Shown piece by piece: positions 26,721-42,328 of a stretch of 64,000 nt of DNA. The position numbers and the translations under genes are program-made. Each line of letters begins with the position of its first letter. Position 1 is the first letter of the stretch. Location of the stretch: contig NZ_AHTH01000005.1 in the NCBI RefSeq assembly GCF_000245735.1, positions 310,001 through 374,000 on the forward strand, given 5' to 3'. This DNA is from Alishewanella jeotgali KCTC 22429 (GTDB lineage Bacteria > Pseudomonadota > Gammaproteobacteria > Enterobacterales > Alteromonadaceae). Below the pieces are notes generated by a model. That model was not told the DNA's origin and made no database searches. It saw only the letters and a program-made list of their open reading frames with translations.

Positions 26721-27560
26721 ATGCAAAAGGACCTGGCAATACCTAATAGCGCTCTACGAAATGGCTTTATTGAACTAAGCTGTGGTCGGTGCTTTTTACT
26801 GACACACATATTTCTAGATTCGACTTCAGCCGTTATCGCCCTTCCCCCCTTCGCCGAAGAAATAAATAAAACCCGGCATCTGGTCGGCAACACCATGCGT
26901 CAACTCTCTGCGGCTGGGTTGAGTTGTTTTATGCTGGATAATTATGGCACCGGCGATAGTGAGGGAGATCTGGATACCGCATCTACAGCCATTTGGCGCG
27001 AAGACATCGTACAACTGCTGCGGCAATTGCAACAACAAGGCTTTACCGAAGTTAGCTTTGTCGCCATCCGTTTTGGCGCCTTACAACTATTTGATCTGTT
27101 AAACTCTTCCCCCATGCCACTTACCGTTAAACAGATAGTGTTATGGCAACCCTTTTTTGAAGTGGCTAAATTCTGGCAGCAATTTGCCAGAATTAGAGTG
27201 GCAGAGGCGATGGCTAGAGGCGAGAAACTAAGCCAAAAAGAACTCGAGCAGCAGCTTAATAATGGAAACACTATCGAAATTGCCGGCTATCCAATCAGCC
27301 CGGCGTTTTACCAAAGTTTGCTAAAGATGCAAACGCAGTTACCTACGGCACTTAACTCTCTAGCAGTGAGCTGGTTTGAAACCTCACAACTGGACAGCAT
27401 TGCCCTGCCAGTGCAAAAAATGCGGGATACGCTTCAGCACGTCTGTGAGCTACAATTTTATCAGCTAAAAGCAGATCCTTACTGGCAAACCAATGAGTTG
27501 GCCAGCGCAGATGAACTTATTAGACTTACAATTCATCAGCTCACGACGATGCCAGCATGA
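26721..27560 (+). CDS. Exosortase A system-associated alpha/beta hydrolase 2
   Basis: A 279-residue alpha/beta-hydrolase-like protein. The segment IALPPFAEEINKTRHLVGNTM followed by LDNYGTGDSEGDL matches the hydrolase 2 family of exosortase A loci (TIGR03101, from memory). The nucleophile elbow reads VAIRFGAL, with Arg-Phe where a Gly-x-Ser-x-Gly serine would be expected, so the usual catalytic serine seems to be absent. The start is the ATG at 26721, well placed after AGGAGAG. It overlaps hydrolase 1 by 4 bp. The pair is a recurrent companion of XrtA polysaccharide genes with no proven substrate; ester hydrolysis or acyl transfer is a guess. Confidence 0.85.
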   Translation: MQKDLAIPNSALRNGFIELSCGRCFLLTHIFLDSTSAVIALPPFAEEINKTRHLVGNTMRQLSAAGLSCFMLDNYGTGDSEGDLDTASTAIWREDIVQLLRQLQQQGFTEVSFVAIRFGALQLFDLLNSSPMPLTVKQIVLWQPFFEVAKFWQQFARIRVAEAMARGEKLSQKELEQQLNNGNTIEIAGYPISPAFYQSLLKMQTQLPTALNSLAVSWFETSQLDSIALPVQKMRDTLQHVCELQFYQLKADPYWQTNELASADELIRLTIHQLTTMPA

Positions 27561-28450
27561 CAGAACGTTATATCAATATAAATACCGAAAATTCTGCTCT
27601 CAGTGCAATACTGCATACGCCTGAATTGAATTCGGGTACGGAGTCAATAGATATCGGGGTATTGGTCCTAGTTGGAGGGCCGCAATACCGTGTAGGCAGC
27701 CACCGGCAATTTGTGAAATTAAGTCGGGCACTTGCCGCACAAGGCATAATCTCAATGCGACTGGATACCTCCGGCATGGGCGACAGTGGCGGTAAAGCGA
27801 AGCCCTTTTTTCAACAAAGTGCTGACATAGAACTGGCTATCGAACACTTTTTTATGACCTGTCCACAGCTGAAGCAGCTGGTGCTCTGGGGGCTATGTGA
27901 TGCCGCCAGTGCTATTTTAATTAAGCTAAACCGGCCAGATTCAAGGATTAGCGGAGTCGTTCTATTAAATCCCTGGGTTCGACAAACACAAAGCCATGCC
28001 CAAACCATGCTTAAGCACTATTACCTGAAGCGTTTAATCAGCAAAGAATTTTGGCAAAAACTGCTTAAAGGCGGTTTAAAACTGACAGACAGTCTGGCCT
28101 CTTTAACGCAAACCCTTAAGGCCAGCCGGGCTAAACCTCAAACCAATAACCTTCCTCGCCCCACTACTTTACATGTAACCGAGCAAACTTACGTTTCAGC
28201 AATGCTTAGCGGCTGGCAAAGCTTTGGTGGCAAAGTACTGGTTATCACCAGTGGCAATGATTTAACCGCACAAGAGTTTCTCGAGCTATGTGCTGCTGAT
28301 CAAAATTGGCAGCAATGTTTAAAGCATTCAGCAAGGGAACATTTGCCTGATGCAAACCATACTTTTGCCAGCGCTATCTGGCGCCAGAGAGTTGAACAAT
28401 GCACTATAGGTTTTGTAAAAAATACCTCTGATGTAATAATCGATAACTAG
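27557..28450 (+). CDS. Exosortase A system-associated alpha/beta hydrolase 1
   Basis: A 297-residue alpha/beta hydrolase. VLVGGPQYRVGSHRQFVKLS, LDTSGMGDSGG and LVLWGLCDAASA match the hydrolase 1 family of exosortase A loci (TIGR03100, from memory). The nucleophile elbow position G-L-C-D-A suggests Cys instead of Ser as nucleophile. A late DANHTFAS supplies a His of the expected catalytic triad. It is translationally coupled to hydrolase 2. The IS66 element lies 162 bp downstream and could have separated this pair from the acyl-activation genes beyond 31 kb, which lie on the opposite strand. Confidence 0.87.
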   Translation: MTERYININTENSALSAILHTPELNSGTESIDIGVLVLVGGPQYRVGSHRQFVKLSRALAAQGIISMRLDTSGMGDSGGKAKPFFQQSADIELAIEHFFMTCPQLKQLVLWGLCDAASAILIKLNRPDSRISGVVLLNPWVRQTQSHAQTMLKHYYLKRLISKEFWQKLLKGGLKLTDSLASLTQTLKASRAKPQTNNLPRPTTLHVTEQTYVSAMLSGWQSFGGKVLVITSGNDLTAQEFLELCAADQNWQQCLKHSAREHLPDANHTFASAIWRQRVEQCTIGFVKNTSDVIIDN

Positions 28451-28458
28451 AACTAAAG

Positions 28459-28608
28459 CTACAGCAGAAGACTGAGCATTTTTTTGAGTTCACGCTTAAC
28501 TCTTGGTATTAGTTCGGGTTTTATTGGATGGTTTATTTCTCCACCTGGGTCGCACTTGTCTACAAAAACGCGATCCATTCTTGTGTTATTTGCGACATAG
28601 ACATGCAT
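28459..28608 (-). pseudogene. Small ORF (49 aa) whose ribosome site was displaced by the IS66 insertion
   Basis: On the minus strand an ATG at 28608 opens a 49-residue frame (MHVYVANNTRMDRVFVDK at the start; a KRELKKML helix near the end; stop at 28459). The ATG lies inside the 8 bp target duplication. If the IS is removed in thought, the right flank puts GAGGTGAGGTT directly before that ATG, a good ribosome site that now sits 2.4 kb away at 31071-31087. The ORF would then have been the last gene of the minus-strand operon ending at 31146. No family is recognised, and a chance ORF of this length is quite possible. Confidence 0.35.
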
Positions 28609-28612
28609 AACC
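28605..28612. repeat. Left target-site duplication of IS66 element
   Basis: GCATAACC directly abuts the left inverted repeat and is repeated exactly at 31071-31078 after the right inverted repeat. Eight base pairs is the usual duplication length for the IS66 family, so this defines the insertion precisely. Confidence 0.95.
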
Positions 28613-28648
28613 GTAAGCGTCCGGCGATCACAGGTAGGTGTTCTAATT

Positions 28649-28680
28649 TAAGTGTCCACTTAATTTTTAGTGGACACTTA
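28649..28680. terminator. Perfect 12 bp hairpin at IS66 left end
   Basis: TAAGTGTCCACT (28649-28660) and its exact complement (28669-28680) enclose an 8-base loop. It lies between the tnpC stop and the left end of the IS. It could end tnp transcription or block transcription entering from outside; an arm this perfect might also be a relic of another element's inverted repeats. Confidence 0.6.
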
Positions 28681-28685
28681 GTGTC

Positions 28686-30251
28686 TTAGATCGCATCACC
28701 TGGCTGGACAGATAAGTCGATGTTCCAGGGTAACAGTTCATCAATGCGGTTGATCGGATGATTACCGATACGTTTTAACACGGCAGTTAAATACGCATTG
28801 GGATTGATGCCATTGAGCTTGGCGGTGCCAAGTATCGAATACAGCACGGCGGCCCGTTCCCCTCCGCCAACAGAGCCGGCAAACAGGTAGTTTTTCCGAC
28901 CCAGGGCGATGGGCCGTAATGACCGCTCCGCACTGTTGTTATCTATCTCAGCATAACCATTATCCACGTACGCCACCAACGCGTCCCATTGCTTTAGTGC
29001 ATATTGGATAGCTTTAGACAACGCAGAGCCTTTTGATAAGGTGCGCAGGGTTGTCTGTAACCAGTTGTTAAACTGTACCAGGATAGGTTTTGCCTGCAGA
29101 CTTCGCAGGCGCTGTCGTTCATCCGGTGGTTGCCCTCGCGCCTGTTTCTCAATCACATACAGTGATTGGATTATGGTCAGGGCTTCTTCTGCCAAGGGGG
29201 ACGGGCCGGATTGGGTAATGTCATAGAACTTACGCCGCACATGGGCCCAACAACCATGCTGGGTGATGTGGTTTTGGTATAAGGCATTGTAACCGGCATA
29301 GGCATCAGCCTGCAGCGAACCTTTATACCCGGTTAAATGGGCAGTGGGGTGCAGACTTTTTCTATCTTCACTGTATTGCAGCCACACGGCAGGCGGTGTG
29401 GTATCGCCCCAGGAACGACCATCACGCACATACGTCCAATAGCGACCGGTTTGCGTGCGGCCTTTTCCTGGTGATAAGGTTGGCGCGGTCGTGTCATCCG
29501 CATAGATATGTTGACCGGCTTTGACATGGCGTCCAATCGCCTCAGCAAGGGGCGTTAATAATGCACCGGATTGACCAACCCAGTCTGCCAGCGTCGAGCG
29601 CTCGATATCAATGCCTTCCCGCTCCATCCGCTCAGCCTGACGGTACAGTGGTTGATGGTCGAGGTATTTATCGACAATCACTTGTGTCAGCAATGCTGCG
29701 CTGGCCAGGCCTTTTTTAATCACCCGCTCCGGAGCCTGACCTTGTACCAGCGTGTCGCAGTGCTGGCAGCTGAACTTAGGGCGTACAATGCGGATAACCC
29801 GATAAGATGCGGGTACGACATCCAACATTTCAGAGACATCCTCACCGATATGGGTTAATTCGCCCTGACATGCCGGACACTGGCAAGGTGCATCAACACG
29901 CTTTTCTTCACGTGGTAACTGTGCCGGTAAGGTCACACGACGACGCGCAGTGGCTTTCTCTTCGACAGCGCCATCGGTAAGTTTCGGTAAGGCGGCCGTC
30001 TGCATCTCCAGCTCTTCTAACTGCAATTCCAGTTGATGGATTTGCTTGTCCAGATGCTCCGAGGAACGACCAAAACGGGCGCGCTTTAATACAGCTAATT
30101 GATGGCGTAATGACGCAATAACCGTGTCTTGCTGGGCAAGCGTTTCCTGCAGTTGCAGGATAATCGCCTGCAACTGTTTCGGGTCATTGGGTAAGGTAGG
30201 TGCCAGCATTTTCATGCGGCGTATTATAGCAAAAAGCGATGGATAACTCAT
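28686..30251 (-). CDS. tnpC: IS66 transposase TnpC
   Basis: The DDE transposase of the IS66 element, up to 521 residues. The N-terminus has a coiled-coil LQLQETLAQQDTVIASLRHQL, then a zinc-ribbon CQCPACQGELTHIGE and CQHCDTLVQGQAPERVI. Catalytic acidic residues are visible at IYADDTTAPTL, LQADAYAGYNALY and NNSAERSLRPIALGRKNYLF. The open frame begins at 30251 without an obvious ribosome site; the start may be ATG 30215 (MKMLAPTLPNDP), the usual start in the family. It ends just before the hairpin at the left IS end. Confidence 0.95.
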   Translation of the reverse strand: MSYPSLFAIIRRMKMLAPTLPNDPKQLQAIILQLQETLAQQDTVIASLRHQLAVLKRARFGRSSEHLDKQIHQLELQLEELEMQTAALPKLTDGAVEEKATARRRVTLPAQLPREEKRVDAPCQCPACQGELTHIGEDVSEMLDVVPASYRVIRIVRPKFSCQHCDTLVQGQAPERVIKKGLASAALLTQVIVDKYLDHQPLYRQAERMEREGIDIERSTLADWVGQSGALLTPLAEAIGRHVKAGQHIYADDTTAPTLSPGKGRTQTGRYWTYVRDGRSWGDTTPPAVWLQYSEDRKSLHPTAHLTGYKGSLQADAYAGYNALYQNHITQHGCWAHVRRKFYDITQSGPSPLAEEALTIIQSLYVIEKQARGQPPDERQRLRSLQAKPILVQFNNWLQTTLRTLSKGSALSKAIQYALKQWDALVAYVDNGYAEIDNNSAERSLRPIALGRKNYLFAGSVGGGERAAVLYSILGTAKLNGINPNAYLTAVLKRIGNHPINRIDELLPWNIDLSVQPGDAI

Positions 30252-30264
30252 TGATTAATTGTAT

Positions 30265-30612
30265 TTAAGCTGTGTTTTTTGGCGTATTTTTTCTGGCGGG
30301 CGGACGCCAGTCTAAGCCTTCAAGCAGTAGCGCTAACTCCGCTTGGGTTAAATGCACAGCACCGGATTTTGCGACAGGCCAGACGAACTGTCCCTGCTCA
30401 AGACGCTTGTAGAATAAACACAAGCCCTGACCATCCCACCACAGTAATTTCACCCGGTCACTACGCCGTCCGCGAAAGACAAACACATGACCACTGAAAG
30501 GGTCTTTTTGCAGGACGTGCTGCGCCATGGCAGCCAGGCCATCAAACCCTTTGCGCATATCGGTGAAACCCGCACACAGCCAGATACGCACATCACGCGA
30601 TAACATCATCAT
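30265..30612 (-). CDS. tnpB: IS66 accessory protein TnpB
   Basis: A 115-residue IS66 Orf2-type protein. VRIWLCAGFTDMRKGFDGLA and HVFVFRGRRSDRVKLLWWDGQGLCLFYKRLEQG are the family hallmarks. It overlaps tnpA by 4 bp (ATGA) and needs tnpA and tnpC for transposition in studied members. Length is normal. Confidence 0.95.
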   Translation of the reverse strand: MMMLSRDVRIWLCAGFTDMRKGFDGLAAMAQHVLQKDPFSGHVFVFRGRRSDRVKLLWWDGQGLCLFYKRLEQGQFVWPVAKSGAVHLTQAELALLLEGLDWRPPARKNTPKNTA

Positions 30613-30986
30613 GATAACGCTGCCACCAGTTGCGCTAACAGGGCCGGTGTCGCCTCGTGCAACATCAACTGATGACCACTTCGAAATGACACCGTGATGG
30701 CAGCTTTAGGCAAAACGGGGGCTGCTGCATTAGCCGGGCGGACGCTGACAGGTAGAAAAGCTGAAGCAGCTACAGGCGCATCCGGTTCACCTTTAGCGCG
30801 TCTGACCCACAAAGCCTGACCCGCCTCAGCTTCACGCATCCAGCGAAATACCTGGTTGGTGTTCACATCGTATTTGCGGGCTAATTCAGAAACGGACAGT
30901 GTACGCTCTTTGGATTCTCGGACAATCTGCCATTTAAACTCAGGGGAAAAGACCCGGCGCACATCGGGGTGTTTTAAAGCTGTCAT
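30609..30986 (-). CDS. tnpA: IS66 accessory protein TnpA
   Basis: A 125-residue protein with an N-terminal helix-turn-helix (FSPEFKWQIVRESKERTLSV, then ELARKYDVNTNQVFRWMREAE) as in IS66 Orf1/TnpA. It is the first gene of the IS66 operon; 84 bp separate its start from the right end of the element, where the operon promoter should be. The frame is intact. Confidence 0.93.
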   Translation of the reverse strand: MTALKHPDVRRVFSPEFKWQIVRESKERTLSVSELARKYDVNTNQVFRWMREAEAGQALWVRRAKGEPDAPVAASAFLPVSVRPANAAAPVLPKAAITVSFRSGHQLMLHEATPALLAQLVAALS

Positions 30987-31070
30987 TCATAAGTCCTCAC
31001 AGTTGGCAACAGTGAGCACTATGATGCGTGATCAGTTAGCAAATAAAAGATGTGTTCGCCGGACGCTTAC

Positions 31071-31078
31071 GCATAACC
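31071..31078. repeat. Right target-site duplication of IS66 element
   Basis: GCATAACC repeats the left copy at 28605-28612 with no mismatch. It also contains, on the minus strand, the start codon of the small ORF noted at 28459-28608. Confidence 0.95.
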
Positions 31079-31145: not shown

Positions 31146-32015
31146 TTAAGCTAACACCGCCCAGCGTAATAAAGCTGCTTTCGGCCAGATTAAAAGCACA
31201 CGTTGAGGCTGATACTTACCTTGCTGAAACAACTGCTGCCGATGTCTCGATTTAACCAAGGCATCGCCGCTGGTGTCGATTCCGCAATAGAAAGCTTGGG
31301 CACCGAGCTCGATTAAACCTTGATTCAGATAGGCCAGATGTGGGCTAATCTCCGCCAGTTGAGGATCGCGTAACCAACTAACCGAGAACACCCCTTTAAT
31401 AGATGGATATTGCTTTAACATTTCGGCAATTAATTGGTAAGCATGCTGCCAGCCATTGTGATCAAAAGCCGGTAACAGCGGTAGATGAACATGAGTTTGA
31501 TAGTAACCCACGCGTCCACCCAGCTGCTGAAGTAATCTAATAAAGCGCCAGCTCTGGCGAATATCCAGCGACAAGCCCTGGCGCAAACTAATACCTGAAT
31601 AGCAGTCAACCAAAGCGGGACCGGCTGGAAATAACTTTAAGCGTGCCAGGGCCAGATCTTTATAGAACACATCCGGGGCATAATCTTGCCACTGTGACGT
31701 GACAACAAATTGACAAATTCTCTCGATCTGGCGACGAAACTCAGCCTGAATACCTTGCGGATAAGCTGTTGAGAACATCTGAGCAAGATGTTGCTGTAAA
31801 AATGCCAGGATCAACCAGCTTTTTGCCGCAGACACTTGCTCAGAAGTATTGTTCTGGTTGAGCGATGCTAATACCTGCGCAATAGCATGATCATGATAAG
31901 GGCTAACCCGGTTGAATTGCGTTTGACACTCTTGTACTAACTGTTGCAGCTGAATACGAGTCACTTCCGGCACAGCGGGCTGTAAGTCGGCGAGCTGCTG
32001 CGCTAAACTGTCCAT
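31146..32015 (-). CDS. Unrecognised protein linked to the XrtA acyl-activation operon
   Basis: A protein of 289 residues from the ATG at 32015, which overlaps the deacetylase stop (TGATG) and has GTGAGG 7-8 bases upstream; a longer start at 32063 would add 16 residues. No family was recognised. It is soluble and Gln/Leu-rich in the N-terminal half. The C-terminal half has distinct conserved-looking blocks: ARLKLFPAGPALVDCYSGISL, GYYQTHVHLPLLPAFDHNGW, GVFSVSWLRDPQLAEISPHL and GAQAFYCGIDTSGDALVKSRH, ending with RVLLIWPKAALLRWAVLA. Several His, Asp and Cys residues in these blocks could be catalytic. Operon position suggests it uses or modifies the product of the ligase and decarboxylase upstream. 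Confidence 0.7.
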   Translation of the reverse strand: MDSLAQQLADLQPAVPEVTRIQLQQLVQECQTQFNRVSPYHDHAIAQVLASLNQNNTSEQVSAAKSWLILAFLQQHLAQMFSTAYPQGIQAEFRRQIERICQFVVTSQWQDYAPDVFYKDLALARLKLFPAGPALVDCYSGISLRQGLSLDIRQSWRFIRLLQQLGGRVGYYQTHVHLPLLPAFDHNGWQHAYQLIAEMLKQYPSIKGVFSVSWLRDPQLAEISPHLAYLNQGLIELGAQAFYCGIDTSGDALVKSRHRQQLFQQGKYQPQRVLLIWPKAALLRWAVLA

Positions 32016-33070
32016 CAGCGCCTCACTAAGCGCAGAGTGCGCCGTTTTATCAGCCGTAAACACTCCAGCACACCGGTAACCTCAGCCTCAAACAACAATT
32101 GGCTAATATTCTCACCATCTAAAAACCGTGGCAAAAAATAACGATCAGTGTGTTTGGTGACAAAACCGGGGGCACAGGTCGTTGCGGATTGTATACCAGC
32201 TTGCTGCAGTAGCATGGCCGCCTGGCGAGTATGCTGACCGGACGGGTAACAAAAGTGTTGAAAATCCCCCGCGCAGATCCGAGTTAAGCTGGCTCTATTG
32301 TCTGCTATGTCCTGTAAAAACGACTCCGCTGATGAAAATTCCATTCTATGCCGATGGGTATGTAATTGTAAGTCGACACCTTGCTCTGCCAATTTCGTTA
32401 GCTCTGAGCTAGTTAATAAATTAAAACAACGTTGTTGCAAGTGATGCTCAATATCGACCCGCAGGCTTTGCGCTAACAATCGAACATAGTCTAGTCGCTC
32501 GCTAAGCCCTGGCAAGCTGGTAAAGTATGCAAAAACTTGAACATAGAGGATTTCTCGCTCAGCTTTGCTGGTAAAGGGTACCCACTGGGGCTGTTGCTTA
32601 AGCTGCAGTTGGCTTAAATCCACTTGCTCTAGTGAGCTCTTATAAAAAATATAACGCATCACCACATTTAGCACTGGCTGATTTTTTTCTACATAGTAGC
32701 TGGTGACGTAAAGTGTAAACGGCATCGACAACTCGGCTAACAACGGTGCCGCTTTGGCGCCGGTAGAGTACCAACCATCATCAAAGGTAATCACAACTGT
32801 ATTAGCTGGCAATTGCTGGCGATCTAATGCCTCTAGTGCTGCACTCAACGGCATTACTGTATAGCCTTGCTGTTTAAGATAACGCAGCCGCTGTTGTAGG
32901 GTGTCGGGGGTAATAAACAGATTGGGGTTAAAACCAGCCTCGTCAAACAAGGACACGCCATGGTAAGCCAGGATCAGCAAACGTCGGCGCATTAACAAGC
33001 GTGTCAATCTGAAAACGCCAGCTGCACGCAGTAGCAACAACAGCCGCTCTTTCAGCTTTTCCGTGTTCAC
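32015..33070 (-). CDS. Polysaccharide deacetylase family protein
   Basis: A 351-residue carbohydrate esterase family 4-type protein. NodB-like motifs are LAYHGVSLFDE, VITFDDGWYSTGAKAAPLL with the Asp pair, DLQLHTHRHRM with His ligands, and CYPSGQ. I place the start at a GTG (33070) overlapping the decarboxylase stop by 4 bp (GTGA); a longer frame to 33160 would lie within the upstream gene. It overlaps the downstream unknown gene by one base. The long central insertion (about residues 130-220) and the decarboxylase linkage set it apart from the deacetylase at 23401, so its substrate may be a small activated amino compound instead of a polymer. Confidence 0.83.
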   Translation of the reverse strand: MNTEKLKERLLLLLRAAGVFRLTRLLMRRRLLILAYHGVSLFDEAGFNPNLFITPDTLQQRLRYLKQQGYTVMPLSAALEALDRQQLPANTVVITFDDGWYSTGAKAAPLLAELSMPFTLYVTSYYVEKNQPVLNVVMRYIFYKSSLEQVDLSQLQLKQQPQWVPFTSKAEREILYVQVFAYFTSLPGLSERLDYVRLLAQSLRVDIEHHLQQRCFNLLTSSELTKLAEQGVDLQLHTHRHRMEFSSAESFLQDIADNRASLTRICAGDFQHFCYPSGQHTRQAAMLLQQAGIQSATTCAPGFVTKHTDRYFLPRFLDGENISQLLFEAEVTGVLECLRLIKRRTLRLVRR

Positions 33071-34302
33071 AACAAAACTTCCACCACCGCCGGATGCCCT
33101 AAAAACTGTTGAGGGCTGGCCGTGGGACCATAAGCGCCGGACTGATACACGACGACCCAATCGCCGGGCTCAGTTATAGGTAACAACACTTTATCCGCGA
33201 TAATATCCAAAGGTGTGCATAATGGGCCAACTATGGTGACCTGCTCCTGCTCGGTAGCGCTGAGTTTATTACCAATCGCCACCGGGTAGTTTTTCCGTAT
33301 CACCTGACCAAAGTTGCCGGAGTTAGCCAGATGATGATGTAAGCCTCCGTTACAAACCAGATAAGTGGTACCGCGTGAGACTTTTTTATCCAGTACCTGA
33401 CAGACGTATACCCCGGCCTCCGCCACCAAGTAACGACCTAGTTCAATCACTAACTCGATATCAGCCAACGCAACCTGATACTGCTGTAATAAAAGTTGTA
33501 GTGATTGGCCCACTGGCGTCAGATCCAGGCGCCGCTCACCACTAAAATAGGGTATACCAAAACCACCACCTAAATTGATCATCTCGGGTCGGTAAGGACA
33601 AGCCGCCACCAGTTTAGCGGCCAGCGCAAAAGTATGTTGATGAGCGTCGATTAAGGCTTCCGCCTTTAAATTTTGTGAGCCGCAAAAAATATGAAAACCA
33701 CGTAATTTCACCGGCATCTTGGCAATCTGTGGCAGTAACTGCAGAACCTGCTCTTCATCTATACCAAAGGGTTTAGCACCGCCTGCCATTTTCATACCAG
33801 AAGCTTTAAGTTCAAAGGCCGGATTAACTCTTAACGCCACTTGAGGGGTAATATTAGCGTGCCGGCCCAGTTGGCTAATTCGCGCCAGCTCACCGACAGA
33901 TTCAACATTAAGGGTAACGCCAGCGACAATAGCAGATAGTAATTCGGCGTCTTCCTTACCCGGGCCGGCAAAGCTAATATCCTTTACCGGCATACCACTT
34001 TGCAGAGCCAACAGCATCTCTTGTTGTGAAGCAACATCAAAGCCATCAACCAGCGATTTTAAACACTGCACCACCGGCCAGTAGGGGTTAGCTTTAATCG
34101 CATAGTGTAACTTTATACGTTCAGGTACATGGGCTCTGAATTTTTGCACCTGTTGCAACATGATTTGCCGGTCATAAGCATAAAACACTGTTTTACCCAG
34201 CAGTTGACTAATCGCGTTAAGACTAAAGCCGCCAAGCAACAGTTGATTATCGCGCTGCGCAAATTGTGACATCGATTCATGTTGTATTGTCGTGTCACTC
34301 AT
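33067..34302 (-). CDS. PLP-dependent decarboxylase, exosortase A system-associated
   Basis: A 411-residue fold-type III (ODC/DAP decarboxylase-like) enzyme. The PLP lysine is in LHYAIKANPYWPVV; the glycine-rich phosphate loop is MINLGGGFGIPYF; the second active-site block is GPLCTPLDIIAD with the conserved Cys. DVASQQEMLLAL and FHIFCGSQNL are also family-typical. It matches the decarboxylase of exosortase A loci (TIGR03099, from memory). The start (34302) overlaps the acyl-CoA ligase stop by 8 bp. It probably decarboxylates an amino acid, or a derivative carried by the neighbouring ACP, to give an amine. Confidence 0.9.
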   Translation of the reverse strand: MSDTTIQHESMSQFAQRDNQLLLGGFSLNAISQLLGKTVFYAYDRQIMLQQVQKFRAHVPERIKLHYAIKANPYWPVVQCLKSLVDGFDVASQQEMLLALQSGMPVKDISFAGPGKEDAELLSAIVAGVTLNVESVGELARISQLGRHANITPQVALRVNPAFELKASGMKMAGGAKPFGIDEEQVLQLLPQIAKMPVKLRGFHIFCGSQNLKAEALIDAHQHTFALAAKLVAACPYRPEMINLGGGFGIPYFSGERRLDLTPVGQSLQLLLQQYQVALADIELVIELGRYLVAEAGVYVCQVLDKKVSRGTTYLVCNGGLHHHLANSGNFGQVIRKNYPVAIGNKLSATEQEQVTIVGPLCTPLDIIADKVLLPITEPGDWVVVYQSGAYGPTASPQQFLGHPAVVEVLL

Positions 34303-35932
34303 TCGGCTTTGCCTCGCTAAAATAATGCTGGTATTCTTGCGCCAGGGCTTTGCGATCAATTTTTCCATTCGGATTTTTCGGCAAACCGTCTTTTAATACT
34401 ATCGCCCTGGGTATCATAAAATTGGGTAAACTGCGTTTTAATTGGATCAGCCATTGCCCCGTGATGACGTCGGTGTTTTTACTGGCACCACCGGCTAACG
34501 CAACCAGTACTAAAATGCCCTGATCAGTCCCATCGTAGATACCTAATGCCGCTACATCCTGAATAGCCGGGTCAAGCCGATATACGGCCTCTTCCACTTC
34601 GGTTGGGCTAACCCGATAACCGGAGGTTTTGATCATCTCATCACGCCGGCCAATAAAATACAGAAAACCCTCTTCATCATATTTCACGGTATCACCGGAA
34701 AAAACTGCCAGCGGCGCCAGCTGAATGCCCGATGCCGCCAGAGGGTCCGGTTTAAAGCGCTCAGCCGTTTTTTCTGGAGCATTCCAGTAGCCCAGACTCA
34801 CCAAAGGACCGCGATGAACCAATTCACCCGGCTCGTTAGGGCCGCACAGGCTGCCGTCCTCCCGCACAACTAAAATTTCAGCATTGGGTATCGCTCTTCC
34901 CATAGAGCCAGGCCTGCGTAACAACTCGGACGGCGGTAAATAGGTTGAGCGAAAGGCCTCGGTTAGCCCGTACATTAAGTAGGGTTCAGCCTTATTGAAA
35001 ATAATCTGCAATTGACTTAGCAAGGCCTGGGGCATAGCGCCACCAGAGTTTGTAAAATAACGCACTGAACTGGCGCTTCCCTCCGGCCAATTTGCCTTGG
35101 CTAACTGAGCCCATAACGGTGGTACAGCGGCGATACCGGTAACCTGATAATGTTCAACTGCACGTACAACATCTTGCACCAACAGAAAATCTAACAGTAC
35201 AACACTGGCACCAACGCTAAAGGCGGTGGTTAGTTGGCTTAAGCCATAATCGAAGCTTAAGGGTAAGATCCCAAGCAGCACATCGTCAGGCGTGTTTTGC
35301 AGGTAACTGGCGACACTGGCAGCGCCACACAGCAAATTTCGCTGCGACAATACTACACCTTTAGGCTTACCGGTGCTGCCTGACGTGTATAAGATGGCGG
35401 CCATATCGGCATCAGTCATACTTTGATGTCTGGGTGTTAGGTTCGGAGTACTCAGCTCTTCTCTTTGTTCTAACCAAGCCATTACCCGGTAATGGCTATG
35501 TAATGGCTGTAACTGTTCAACCGCGGTCAAACTGGCACTGTCAACGACTAATACTGTGTGCAAATCAGGACAAGCTGTCAGCACTTCCGTTAACCCATGC
35601 AACCGCTCAACACTGGTGATCAAACAACGTACATTACAATCATTGAGAATATGCTGAACCTGAGCCGCTTTCAGTGCAGGGTTAACTGGTACGAAAACGG
35701 CGCCACCACTATTGCAGGCGAATAAAGCGACAACCGTTTCAAGCTGTTTGGGTAAATAAATGGCAACCCGGTCAAAGCGTTGTAAACCGAGTAGCGATAA
35801 CCGCTCGGTTTGCTGCTGCACCCAAAGTTGCAACTGCGCATAGCTAATATGCTGATTTTTATAATGAAGTGCCGGCCGTTCAGCGAAGCGACGGGCTGAG
35901 AAGGAAAGTAGTTCAGCTAAACTGTTGGTCAT
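34295..35932 (-). CDS. AMP-forming acyl-CoA/ACP ligase, exosortase A system-associated
   Basis: A 545-residue ANL-superfamily adenylating enzyme. The phosphate loop is ILYTSGSTGKPKGVVLS, the adenine motif MYGLTEAFRST, and the C-terminal hinge and catalytic region GDTVKYDEEGFLYFIGRRDE, MIKTSGYRVSPTEVEEA and NPNGKIDRKAL, whose Lys is the adenylation lysine. Match to TIGR03098 (acyl-CoA ligase, exosortase A-associated) is from memory. Start at ATG 35932 has AAAGGACTG upstream; a longer frame to 35968 lacks a site. It heads the minus operon and diverges from an ACP gene across 145 bp, an arrangement like a ligase/carrier pair, so the activated acyl group may be loaded onto that ACP. Confidence 0.92.
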   Translation of the reverse strand: MTNSLAELLSFSARRFAERPALHYKNQHISYAQLQLWVQQQTERLSLLGLQRFDRVAIYLPKQLETVVALFACNSGGAVFVPVNPALKAAQVQHILNDCNVRCLITSVERLHGLTEVLTACPDLHTVLVVDSASLTAVEQLQPLHSHYRVMAWLEQREELSTPNLTPRHQSMTDADMAAILYTSGSTGKPKGVVLSQRNLLCGAASVASYLQNTPDDVLLGILPLSFDYGLSQLTTAFSVGASVVLLDFLLVQDVVRAVEHYQVTGIAAVPPLWAQLAKANWPEGSASSVRYFTNSGGAMPQALLSQLQIIFNKAEPYLMYGLTEAFRSTYLPPSELLRRPGSMGRAIPNAEILVVREDGSLCGPNEPGELVHRGPLVSLGYWNAPEKTAERFKPDPLAASGIQLAPLAVFSGDTVKYDEEGFLYFIGRRDEMIKTSGYRVSPTEVEEAVYRLDPAIQDVAALGIYDGTDQGILVLVALAGGASKNTDVITGQWLIQLKRSLPNFMIPRAIVLKDGLPKNPNGKIDRKALAQEYQHYFSEAKPNE

Positions 35933-36077
35933 ATCAGTCCTTTCTGACCTGTTATCTAGACTCCGCAATTGTTTAATAATACATCAACTTCTCAAAAAAA
36001 ATAGCCAGCTTGTCACTAATGTTGTTGAATTTTTTAGCAGCTTGCGTAGATTAAAAGTGAGACCGTCAAGGATAGAA

Positions 36078-36323
36078 ATGATGAACACACAGCAAATAGT
36101 TAGCGACATCTTGCGATCCGTTTTACAAATTGACCGCCCCTTTACCGCCACGACTCCGCTACTCGGTGCGATCCCGGAATTTGATTCTATGGCGGTAATA
36201 GCTATCCTGACCGAACTGGAAAATCAGCTGGGAATTGCCATCAGTGATGATGAGATTTCAGCCGAAATTTTTGAGAATTTCGGGCAGTTACAACAATATG
36301 TTGACTCTAAACTTGCGGCTTGA
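36078..36323 (+). CDS. Acyl carrier protein
   Basis: An 81-residue ACP. The phosphopantetheine attachment serine is Ser37 in PEFDSMAVIAILTELEN, in the expected place for a short four-helix carrier; the usual acidic helix II follows with DDEISAEIFENFGQL. Two adjacent ATGs (36078 and 36081) follow an AAGGA at 36068-36072; either could start it. It is divergent from the acyl ligase gene across 145 bp, so both share a control region. It probably carries the activated group used by the decarboxylase and/or the acyltransferase encoded at 41552. Confidence 0.9.
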   Translation: MMNTQQIVSDILRSVLQIDRPFTATTPLLGAIPEFDSMAVIAILTELENQLGIAISDDEISAEIFENFGQLQQYVDSKLAA

Positions 36324-41551: not shown

Positions 41552-42328
41552 TTAACGCTCTAGATAAGGTAACAAGAGGACCTGTGGATGGAGGCTATTA
41601 AACAGATACTGATACAGCTCCAGTATTTCCGGCGACAACTTCGCGGTGTAATTTTCCTTGCGCAAATAAAACAAGGCTCTAACGCCGTGATAATCCATTT
41701 CATCCCCTAATTGCTCAAACGGAAATCCAATTCGTTCGAGCCGTTTCTTTAATCTGGGTTCTACCACAACAAACATTGCGCGGTGATGGCACATCTCAGA
41801 CAAAGCGATAATACTCAGATACAATCCGACGGCAATATTTGGAAAATTACGTCTCTCCTCTTCGCTAAATACCGCTTCGTCACTACTAAATTCATTAACA
41901 ACAAAGGGAGTATTTTGTTCACCCAAGCGTCGTCTAAAGGTCTCTGGCACTGCTAATCTGGAAATTTCACTATAAGAGCCTCTTTTATAGTCTGCTAAAT
42001 TTATAGCACCAGGTCTTATGGAATTAAGGCAATGCGCTTCAAATGGCAATAAACACTCGGGTCTGTTTGGTGGTGATATCACCAATCTTGCAGTACCGGC
42101 ATAACGTTTACTGGTTTTATGTCTGAGCAACAACGTAAACGAATAGCTATCACACTCATCGGTTTCCATCCGATCTTCCCGCTCTGGCTCCCAGCCTAAT
42201 TCCTCACAATACACGGCATGACGGATCCGATAAGCCTCTTCCTGCAACGCCTTGGTATTGGCAAATTCGATATCAAAATACTGAGCAAAGTTTTCTGCCA
42301 GTGTTTTGCTGGTCATAGCGGCATCCAT
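41552..42328 (-). CDS. PEP-CTERM/exosortase system-associated acyltransferase (GNAT, autoinducer-synthase-like)
   Basis: A 258-residue protein of the acyl-homoserine-lactone-synthase-like GNAT type. The N-terminal block EAYRIRHAVYCEELGWEPE, followed by ETDECDSYSFTLLL, YAGTARLVISPP and EISRLAVPETFRRR, matches the putative PEP-CTERM/exosortase system-associated acyltransferase (TIGR03694, from memory). It should use an acyl-ACP or acyl-CoA donor; an ACP gene lies 5 kb away. The start at 42328 follows AAAGGAAAC. Despite the resemblance to LuxI, its neighbours suggest a role in exopolysaccharide or substrate acylation and not quorum sensing. Confidence 0.9.
   Translation of the reverse strand: MDAAMTSKTLAENFAQYFDIEFANTKALQEEAYRIRHAVYCEELGWEPEREDRMETDECDSYSFTLLLRHKTSKRYAGTARLVISPPNRPECLLPFEAHCLNSIRPGAINLADYKRGSYSEISRLAVPETFRRRLGEQNTPFVVNEFSSDEAVFSEEERRNFPNIAVGLYLSIIALSEMCHHRAMFVVVEPRLKKRLERIGFPFEQLGDEMDYHGVRALFYLRKENYTAKLSPEILELYQYLFNSLHPQVLLLPYLER

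Follow-up and report, generated by a model that had tools for sequence, protein, structure and literature searches.

The 64,000-nucleotide stretch of DNA analysed here (the window) carries the genes in question between positions 26721 and 42328, and protein families were called by the curated cut-offs of NCBIfam (TIGR03098, TIGR03099, TIGR03100, TIGR03101 and TIGR03694). Four genes on the minus strand follow one another: an AMP-forming ligase (34295..35932; TIGR03098, 708 bits, cut-off 592), a PLP decarboxylase (33067..34302; TIGR03099, 585 bits, cut-off 478), a polysaccharide-deacetylase-like protein with a GTG start (32015..33070; PF01522, 67.7 bits) and a partner of the deacetylase that has no family match (31146..32015). 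They overlap by 8, 4 and 1 bases, respectively, and an ACP gene on the plus strand (36078..36323; PF00550, 25 bits; attachment site Ser37, numbered from the first Met) diverges from the ligase across 145 bp; the coordinates thus bear out the overlapping run and the divergent ACP of the original prediction. Also on the plus strand are two paralogues of the alpha/beta-hydrolase type: hydrolase 1 (27557..28450; TIGR03100, 294.5 bits, cut-off 168), a candidate acyl transferase, and hydrolase 2 (26721..27560), a candidate non-hydrolytic partner whose 185.8 bits stay just below the TIGR03101 cut-off of 202.75. Ligase, decarboxylase and hydrolase 1 hence exceed the cut-offs of their exosortase A system-associated families. 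An exosortase-associated acyltransferase (41552..42328, minus strand; TIGR03694, 237 bits, cut-off 112) may be a further associate.

The overlapping four-gene run is two units joined. The conserved unit is the ligase, the decarboxylase, the divergent ACP and the two hydrolase-type proteins; the deacetylase and its partner are, judged by homology and gene order, a separate polysaccharide-locus cassette outside this module. The partner protein had no match in NCBIfam, Pfam or PHROGs and nothing significant in the PDB, and its predicted structure, with a pLDDT of 50, was set aside. A search of 97 other genomes gave homologues in six, every one of the same genus. In these six the gene directly precedes a deacetylase homologue at another place in the polysaccharide locus, and the 20 kb covered there contained no match to the ligase or the decarboxylase. 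In the window it is the deacetylase gene that comes first in the cassette. Since the partner gene also had no match in 80 related loci, the single four-gene pathway that had been proposed is rejected. The sole deacetylase-type match just after the decarboxylase in these 80 loci (locus L099) is on the opposite strand and scores as another deacetylase family; an iterated deacetylase profile drifted into this second family, and its remaining counts were set aside.

Between hydrolase 1 and the partner gene lies an insertion element (28613..31070, minus strand), which we take to be of the IS66 type from its three-gene layout. Its ends are 21-nt repeats, 95% complementary, and it is flanked by a perfect 8-bp target duplication, GCATAACC, at 28605-28612 and 31071-31078. 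The element now parts the hydrolases from the rest of the module. It did not truncate the partner gene, whose stop codon is 67 bp away from the target duplication and whose homologues stop at a similar residue.

In 72 of the 80 loci, which include Nitrosomonas, Methylomonas and Zoogloea, the ligase gene immediately precedes that of the decarboxylase. ACP and hydrolase 2 adjoin on one strand in 22 of the 30 loci having both, and in the window as in many loci the hydrolases and ACP adjoin polysaccharide genes. Of the 55 loci in which each flank reached 8 kb or more, the ACP was not found in 21 and the hydrolases were not found in 29; both may lie elsewhere in those genomes. The module is associated with the exosortase XrtA yet separable from it: at the thresholds used, the decarboxylase is missing in 47 of 76 XrtA genomes, and of the 16 genomes that carry the decarboxylase but no XrtA, 11 gave no exosortase match, so that an obligatory exosortase component is rejected. 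The class count covers 43 decarboxylase genomes, 38 of them over the curated cut-off; three are just below it at 455 bits (G331, G425 and G497, three of the 11 exosortase-free genomes) and two have a partial gene (G274 and G496, both among the 29 with XrtA). In one exosortase-free genome (G107, locus L122) ligase, decarboxylase and ACP are co-directional, and a glycosyltransferase and a weak O-antigen-ligase match lie next to them. In three further exosortase-free genomes (L114, L116 and L117) most of the scanned neighbours have housekeeping roles (aromatic amino-acid synthesis, LpxA, LpxB, LpxK, UvrB), and a polysaccharide target is therefore unsupported there. L114 also has a FemAB-like protein near the module.

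The pocket of the ligase suggests a substrate type. Searched against the PDB, the pocket segment gave VinN as top match; with the full-length protein the NRPS domain of gramicidin synthetase came first and VinN seventh. A review lists D230, S299 and R331 as pocket residues of VinN, which accepts 3-methylaspartate as a beta-amino acid: D230 holds the amino group and R331 lies in the beta13-beta14 loop. These residues align with D228, S296 and R328 of the ligase, and across this loop, which has a short form in VinN, the alignment is ungapped throughout. A ligase match was present in 79 loci, of which 77 were kept at a threshold of at least 600 bits, and counts are given over 78 rows: D228, M320, R328 and K524 are invariant (78/78), and position 296 is always Ser (46) or Thr (32). 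The pocket Asp or Arg of the VinN type is carried by none of the five other AMP-forming ligases of the genome. The bulky F231 of VinN, which like S299 faces the loop from the opposite side, corresponds to Tyr229 in the window; since the family has Tyr in 47 and Ala in 31 of 78 rows here, a single substrate for all its ligases is doubtful. No glutamate mutase match was found in the genome, which makes 3-methylaspartate itself a less likely substrate. Taken together, the pocket suggests an aspartate-type beta-amino-acid adenylation enzyme resembling VinN.

The decarboxylase points to a carrier-bound substrate. Its top PDB match is BtrK, an enzyme whose amino-acid substrate is decarboxylated while attached to a carrier protein, with 252 bits vs 125 bits for the best diaminopimelate decarboxylase. 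The motifs CTPxD, KMxG and HHH are common to both proteins, and the LysA-type motifs CE[S/T]xD, THPxxSTG and MND are absent from the decarboxylase. In a tree from which one misframed LysA row was left out, 10 LysA-type rows split from the 44 others, BtrK included, at 100/100; a constraint placing BtrK and LysA together gave a p-AU of 0.45, which leaves room for BtrK as the deepest branch among the 44. The resemblance suggests an ACP-substrate decarboxylase of the BtrK type.

The ACP, with 2LKI as best PDB match, conserves its attachment Ser in 42 of 42 rows. The unusual nucleophile positions of the hydrolases that had been noticed earlier are real and conserved. In hydrolase 1 (predicted structure with pLDDT 89 and alpha/beta-hydrolase fold matches) C114 is found in 32/32, D235 in 31/32 and H268 in 31/32 rows, at the triad-like places of nucleophile, acid and His; by their position, D235 and H268 would complete the triad. 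Hydrolase 2 bears Arg117 at the nucleophile place in 31/31 rows and has no His among the positions conserved in at least 90% of them. An active alpha/beta-hydrolase has a Ser, Cys or Asp nucleophile and a His, and no such triad is recognisable in this protein. The suggestion that both hydrolases do transfer chemistry has partial support, from the Cys, Asp and His of hydrolase 1.

From family membership, conserved pocket and motif residues and gene linkage, all read from sequence, we infer a pathway, from its substrate and the order of its reactions to the product, the transfer step and the target (polysaccharide or protein), and give it a probability of roughly 55%, a value slightly lowered by the gene contexts described above. 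The ligase would adenylate an amino-dicarboxylic acid, most likely L-aspartate via its beta-carboxyl and less likely glutamate, and the acid would then be bound as a thioester to the phosphopantetheine of ACP Ser37. The PLP decarboxylase would strip the free alpha-carboxylate from the ACP-bound amino acid, which would leave an omega-aminoacyl-ACP: beta-alanyl-ACP from aspartate, gamma-aminobutyryl-ACP from glutamate. Hydrolase 1 may accept this group on its Cys nucleophile and pass it to an acceptor, perhaps exopolysaccharide or a lipid-linked precursor, and hydrolase 2, with Arg replacing the nucleophile, might assist it. There are published precedents for this order of reactions in VinN/VinL/VinO and BtrI/BtrK. 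In outline this agrees with the original prediction of an acid activated on a carrier from which a decarboxylase then makes an amine, as the BtrK-like decarboxylase and VinN-like pocket suggest; membership of DltA/DltC is not supported (see below).

The fate of the aminoacyl-ACP could differ. It is conceivable, if a good deal less probable than transfer to a polymer, that the group is N-acylated by the TIGR03694 acyltransferase or freed by the hydrolases, yielding a free or lipid-bound N-acyl-amino acid and no polymer decoration. In 11 of the 80 loci a TIGR03694 homologue follows closely on the decarboxylase, the window protein matches the Pfam FeeM and autoinducer-synthase families, and the modules of L116 and L117 lie outside polysaccharide loci. 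A genetic link between N-acyl amino acid synthases and exosortase systems is also reported, as cited in PMC4897644. However, just 21 of the 80 loci showed TIGR03694 anywhere within their limited flanks, and polysaccharide genes adjoin the hydrolases and ACP as described above.

Somewhat less probable still is that the substrate of the decarboxylase is a free diamino acid (lysine, ornithine or diaminopimelate) and that the resulting diamine is the acceptor for an acyl group activated independently by ligase and ACP. The enzyme does share its fold family with LysA and ornithine decarboxylase, and the lysA model TIGR01048 gives 217 bits, below its cut-off of 298. The Glu of the LysA signature CE[S/T]xD contacts the far amine of the substrate. 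All 81 family rows, however, replace this signature with CTPxD, as in BtrK; the genome encodes a separate LysA, and the tight linkage of ligase and decarboxylase also speaks against independent reactions.

We consider it improbable that the amine placed on a polysaccharide or lipid-linked precursor releases the exosortase acyl-enzyme, so that in species with both systems the module would build the PEP-CTERM anchor. PMC7157517 offers a proposed archaeal parallel: proteins of the phosphatidylserine synthase and phosphatidylserine decarboxylase types take part in maturing the substrates of archaeosortase A, for which archaetidylethanolamine, through its amine, is the suggested acceptor. The anchor reading is weakened by the XrtA genomes without decarboxylase and the decarboxylase genomes without exosortase match counted above. 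Least probable of all is that the ligase charges the ACP with D-alanine or another simple amino acid for transfer to the polymer while the decarboxylase serves another reaction: ligase and ACP are both present and the amino-acid adenylation model TIGR01733 gives 252.5 bits (short of the 317.4 it requires), but the DltA and DltC models reach 170 vs 476 and 18.7 vs 68 bits, no MBOAT match was found among 20 window proteins scanned against Pfam, the pocket Arg is invariant and the ligase is linked to the decarboxylase.

Loading, decarboxylation on the ACP and transfer, the reading we prefer, can be compared with several known systems. The vicenistatin enzymes VinN/VinL/VinO likewise combine an adenylation enzyme, a stand-alone ACP and a PLP decarboxylase, and the three pocket residues recur in the window's ligase, whose loop aligns ungapped with that of VinN; in contrast, the window has no macrolactam polyketide context, its genome no glutamate mutase match, and two hydrolase-fold proteins stand in place of VinM, VinK and VinJ. 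Butirosin biosynthesis, with the ACP BtrI and the glutamyl-ACP decarboxylase BtrK, shares the decarboxylase likeness in PDB match and motifs. There the ACP is loaded by BtrJ, a ligase of the ATP-grasp type, whereas here the ligase is AMP-forming, and the butirosin product is an aminoglycoside. With DltA/DltC of teichoic acid D-alanylation the module shares an amino-acid-type adenylation enzyme that would load a small carrier protein for a surface polymer, but it differs in the unmet models, the decarboxylase, the pocket Arg and the missing MBOAT match. A further comparison is with TIGR03098 to TIGR03101, whose cut-offs ligase, decarboxylase and hydrolase 1 exceed, while hydrolase 2 stays below its own. 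These families carry no assigned reaction ('hypoth_equivalog' in NCBIfam) and so far take their names only from the exosortase A loci in which they occur across many environmental bacteria. What is new here is the nearness in sequence of the decarboxylase to BtrK, without diaminopimelate-decarboxylase signatures, and the match of the ligase pocket to VinN. The predicted conversion of amino-dicarboxylate-ACP to omega-aminoacyl-ACP makes of them a pathway that can be tested by exact mass shifts, in a module separable from protein sorting; groups carrying an amine would be expected in biofilm polymers or close to them. If true, it would give a first chemical role to families known mainly from their neighbourhood, and the antibiotic-type logic of VinN/VinL/VinO and BtrI/BtrK would be carried into cell-surface chemistry.

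The window belongs to a polysaccharide/exosortase A locus. On the same contig, ∼2.9 kb ahead of the window start, is the gene for exosortase XrtA; the window itself carries genes for asparagine-synthase-type amidotransferases, glycosyltransferases, a Polysacc_synt_3 family protein, PrsT, PrsK and a PEP-CTERM-box response regulator. The original prediction joined four translationally coupled genes and an ACP (36078–36323, plus strand) in one acyl/amine activation pathway. Its positions for these genes hold, and the overlaps of 8, 4 and 1 bases between AMP-forming ligase (34295–35932), PLP decarboxylase (33067–34302), deacetylase (32015–33070) and a fourth gene for an unknown protein (31146–32015, all minus strand) were confirmed. 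Among named relatives, the decarboxylase is closest to those of Arsukibacterium and Rheinheimera (72–78% identity). Between hydrolase 1 and the fourth gene we found an IS66-type element (28613–31070; 28605–31078 with target duplication), recognized by end repeats of 21 nt that are 95% complementary and by a perfect 8-bp duplication of its target, GCATAACC; it is intergenic and its insertion broke no gene.

The four overlapping genes are not borne out as one unit. We mapped the best 80 of 573 decarboxylase loci: by a distance rule, 72 have the ligase just ahead of the decarboxylase, and eight fall outside this rule, among them L078, which starts ∼100 bases ahead of the decarboxylase match. In 55 loci both flanks reach 8 kb or more. 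Of these, 34 contain the ACP, which was not seen within reach in the other 21; 26 contain it together with both hydrolases, the complete set not being seen within reach in 29. The two hydrolases are neighbours in all 30 loci having both, and the ACP adjoins hydrolase 2 on the same strand in 22 of 30 loci having both. This linkage defines a conserved module of ligase and decarboxylase, often with ACP and hydrolase pair. One locus, L119 from genome G254, carries an aspartoacylase/succinylglutamate-desuccinylase-type domain (PF24827; 4094–5362, plus strand) beside decarboxylase and ligase. The fourth gene has no match across the 80 loci. Of 98 genomes selected as relatives, six besides its own have it, all of the same genus; in 6/6 it directly precedes a deacetylase homologue elsewhere in the polysaccharide locus (L150–L155, about 10.0–12.7 kb), and the 20 kb taken gave no ligase or decarboxylase match. 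The overlap of four genes in the window thus reflects a two-gene cassette that has locally become joined to the module. An HxH motif is invariant in the family of the fourth gene (7/7).

The decarboxylase passes TIGR03099, and its clearly top match against all PDB sequences is BtrK (252 bits), followed by 6knh (166 bits), labelled a probable diaminopimelate decarboxylase and presumably SbnH, and then by diaminopimelate decarboxylases (125 bits at best). BtrK and the family have CTPxD, KMxG and HHH in common, where LysA has CE[S/T]xD, THPxxSTG and MND. A 54-row tree separates 10 rows of LysA type from the other 44, BtrK among them, at 100/100; the LysA-like gene of this genome is located elsewhere. 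In two outlying loci (L025:247–2739, minus strand; L026:1459–3945, plus strand) a BtrK-like decarboxylase carries a fused acyl-CoA dehydrogenase-type domain. These fusions suggest that decarboxylation of a carrier-bound product is followed by its oxidation, and fit thioester chemistry.

The ligase passes TIGR03098. At whole length its first PDB match is an adenylation domain from linear gramicidin synthetase, and VinN ranks seventh; for the pocket segment alone (124 residues) VinN comes first (7.8e-9). VinN holds the beta-amino group through D230, has in F231 and S299 bulkier residues than alpha-amino-acid enzymes do at these places, and carries K330 and R331 on a loop one residue shorter, according to the part of a review consulted (PMC11253843). 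In the window ligase, an ungapped alignment places D228, Y229, S296, F327 and R328 opposite these five residues. We aligned 78 ligases, the window's and 77 others of at least 600 bits (79 loci gave a match): Asp228, Arg328, Met320 and Lys524 never vary, every row has Ser or Thr at position 296, and position 229 is occupied by Tyr in 47 rows and by Ala in 31. Ala229 pairs with Thr296 in 31/31, Tyr229 with Ser296 in 46 and with Thr in one. These two correlated pocket versions suggest two substrate classes, which we infer to be one for aspartate and one for glutamate. In a coarse comparison including some distant sequences, none of five other AMP-forming ligases of the genome has either the Asp or the Arg. 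VinN takes 3-methylaspartate; as this genome gave no glutamate mutase match, the simplest substrate to propose here is aspartate.

The ACP serine is kept in 42/42 rows; the top PDB match, 2LKI (5.9e-14), is labelled only ‘putative uncharacterized protein’. Within the hydrolase pair (26721–28450), hydrolase 1 (27557–28450, plus strand) conserves C114 (32/32 rows), D235 and H268 (31/32 each), and its predicted model (pLDDT 89) has its best matches among esterases and lipases; an acyl-ACP thioesterase ranks lower. Hydrolase 2 (26721–27560, plus strand) has Arg117 at the nucleophile place in 31/31 rows and no His among positions conserved at ≥90%. From these residues we read hydrolase 1 as a probable active Cys enzyme and hydrolase 2 as its putative non-hydrolytic paralogous partner.

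We propose that an amino-dicarboxylate would first be loaded onto the ACP and then decarboxylated there, aspartate giving beta-alanyl-ACP and glutamate GABA-ACP. In the weakest step, the amine-tipped acyl group would be handed to an acceptor, most likely the polysaccharide. An N-acylated or lipid-bound product stays a rival, since a TIGR03694-type acyltransferase, which could provide an N-acylation step, lies just downstream of the decarboxylase in 11/80 loci (L041, L042, L043, L049, L054, L065, L070, L084, L087, L102 and L108).

Of 370 genomes from the class, 76 have XrtA (1e-60, each above the curated cut-off), 43 have the decarboxylase (1e-110; 38 above the curated cut-off, three just below, two partial) and 29 have both (Fisher p = 7.6e-13, kinship uncorrected); the decarboxylase is missing from 47 of the 76 with XrtA. 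At curated cut-offs, each occurs in 13 of 199 genomes from the phylum, with 11 shared. The link is real but loose. Sixteen genomes with the decarboxylase show no XrtA above its thresholds (14 of the class, plus G107 and G146 of the phylum). Five of them gave an exosortase match of some kind at 1e-5; the other 11 gave none, and of these four are single-contig and three have a decarboxylase just below the family cut-off. The surroundings of exosortase-free modules point both ways on the target. In G107 (L122), ligase, decarboxylase and ACP run in one direction beside a glycosyltransferase, with weak deacetylase-model and O-antigen-ligase matches as further neighbours; in L114, L116 and L117 the scanned neighbours are mostly housekeeping genes, L114 also having a FemAB-like protein. 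A fumarase/aspartate ammonia-lyase family protein lies ∼2 kb from the decarboxylase in the exosortase-free L116 (12986–14395, minus strand). That the new amine serves as exosortase acceptor in some species, for which an archaeal parallel has been proposed (in the part seen of PMC7157517), is very improbable, its standing lowered by the co-occurrence counts. An obligatory role in protein sorting is argued against by these counts and the mixed surroundings; a polysaccharide target is likely in the window and no more than possible in general.

The gene neighbourhood is already known, its families being without an assigned reaction. In agreement with the original prediction that no product had been assigned to them, we found no functional assignment in open-licence full text, including the parts consulted of the 2006 PEP-CTERM paper (PMC1569441), PMC4897644 and PMC9850573; other literature could contain one. 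The new element is the substrate-level prediction, backed separately by two module enzymes. Its proposed order is that of VinN, VinL and VinO, by which an amino-dicarboxylate is loaded on an ACP and decarboxylated there (as excerpted from PMC11284099), and the glutamate that BtrK decarboxylates is likewise carrier-bound, attached to the protein BtrI (PMC7857480, in the portion seen).
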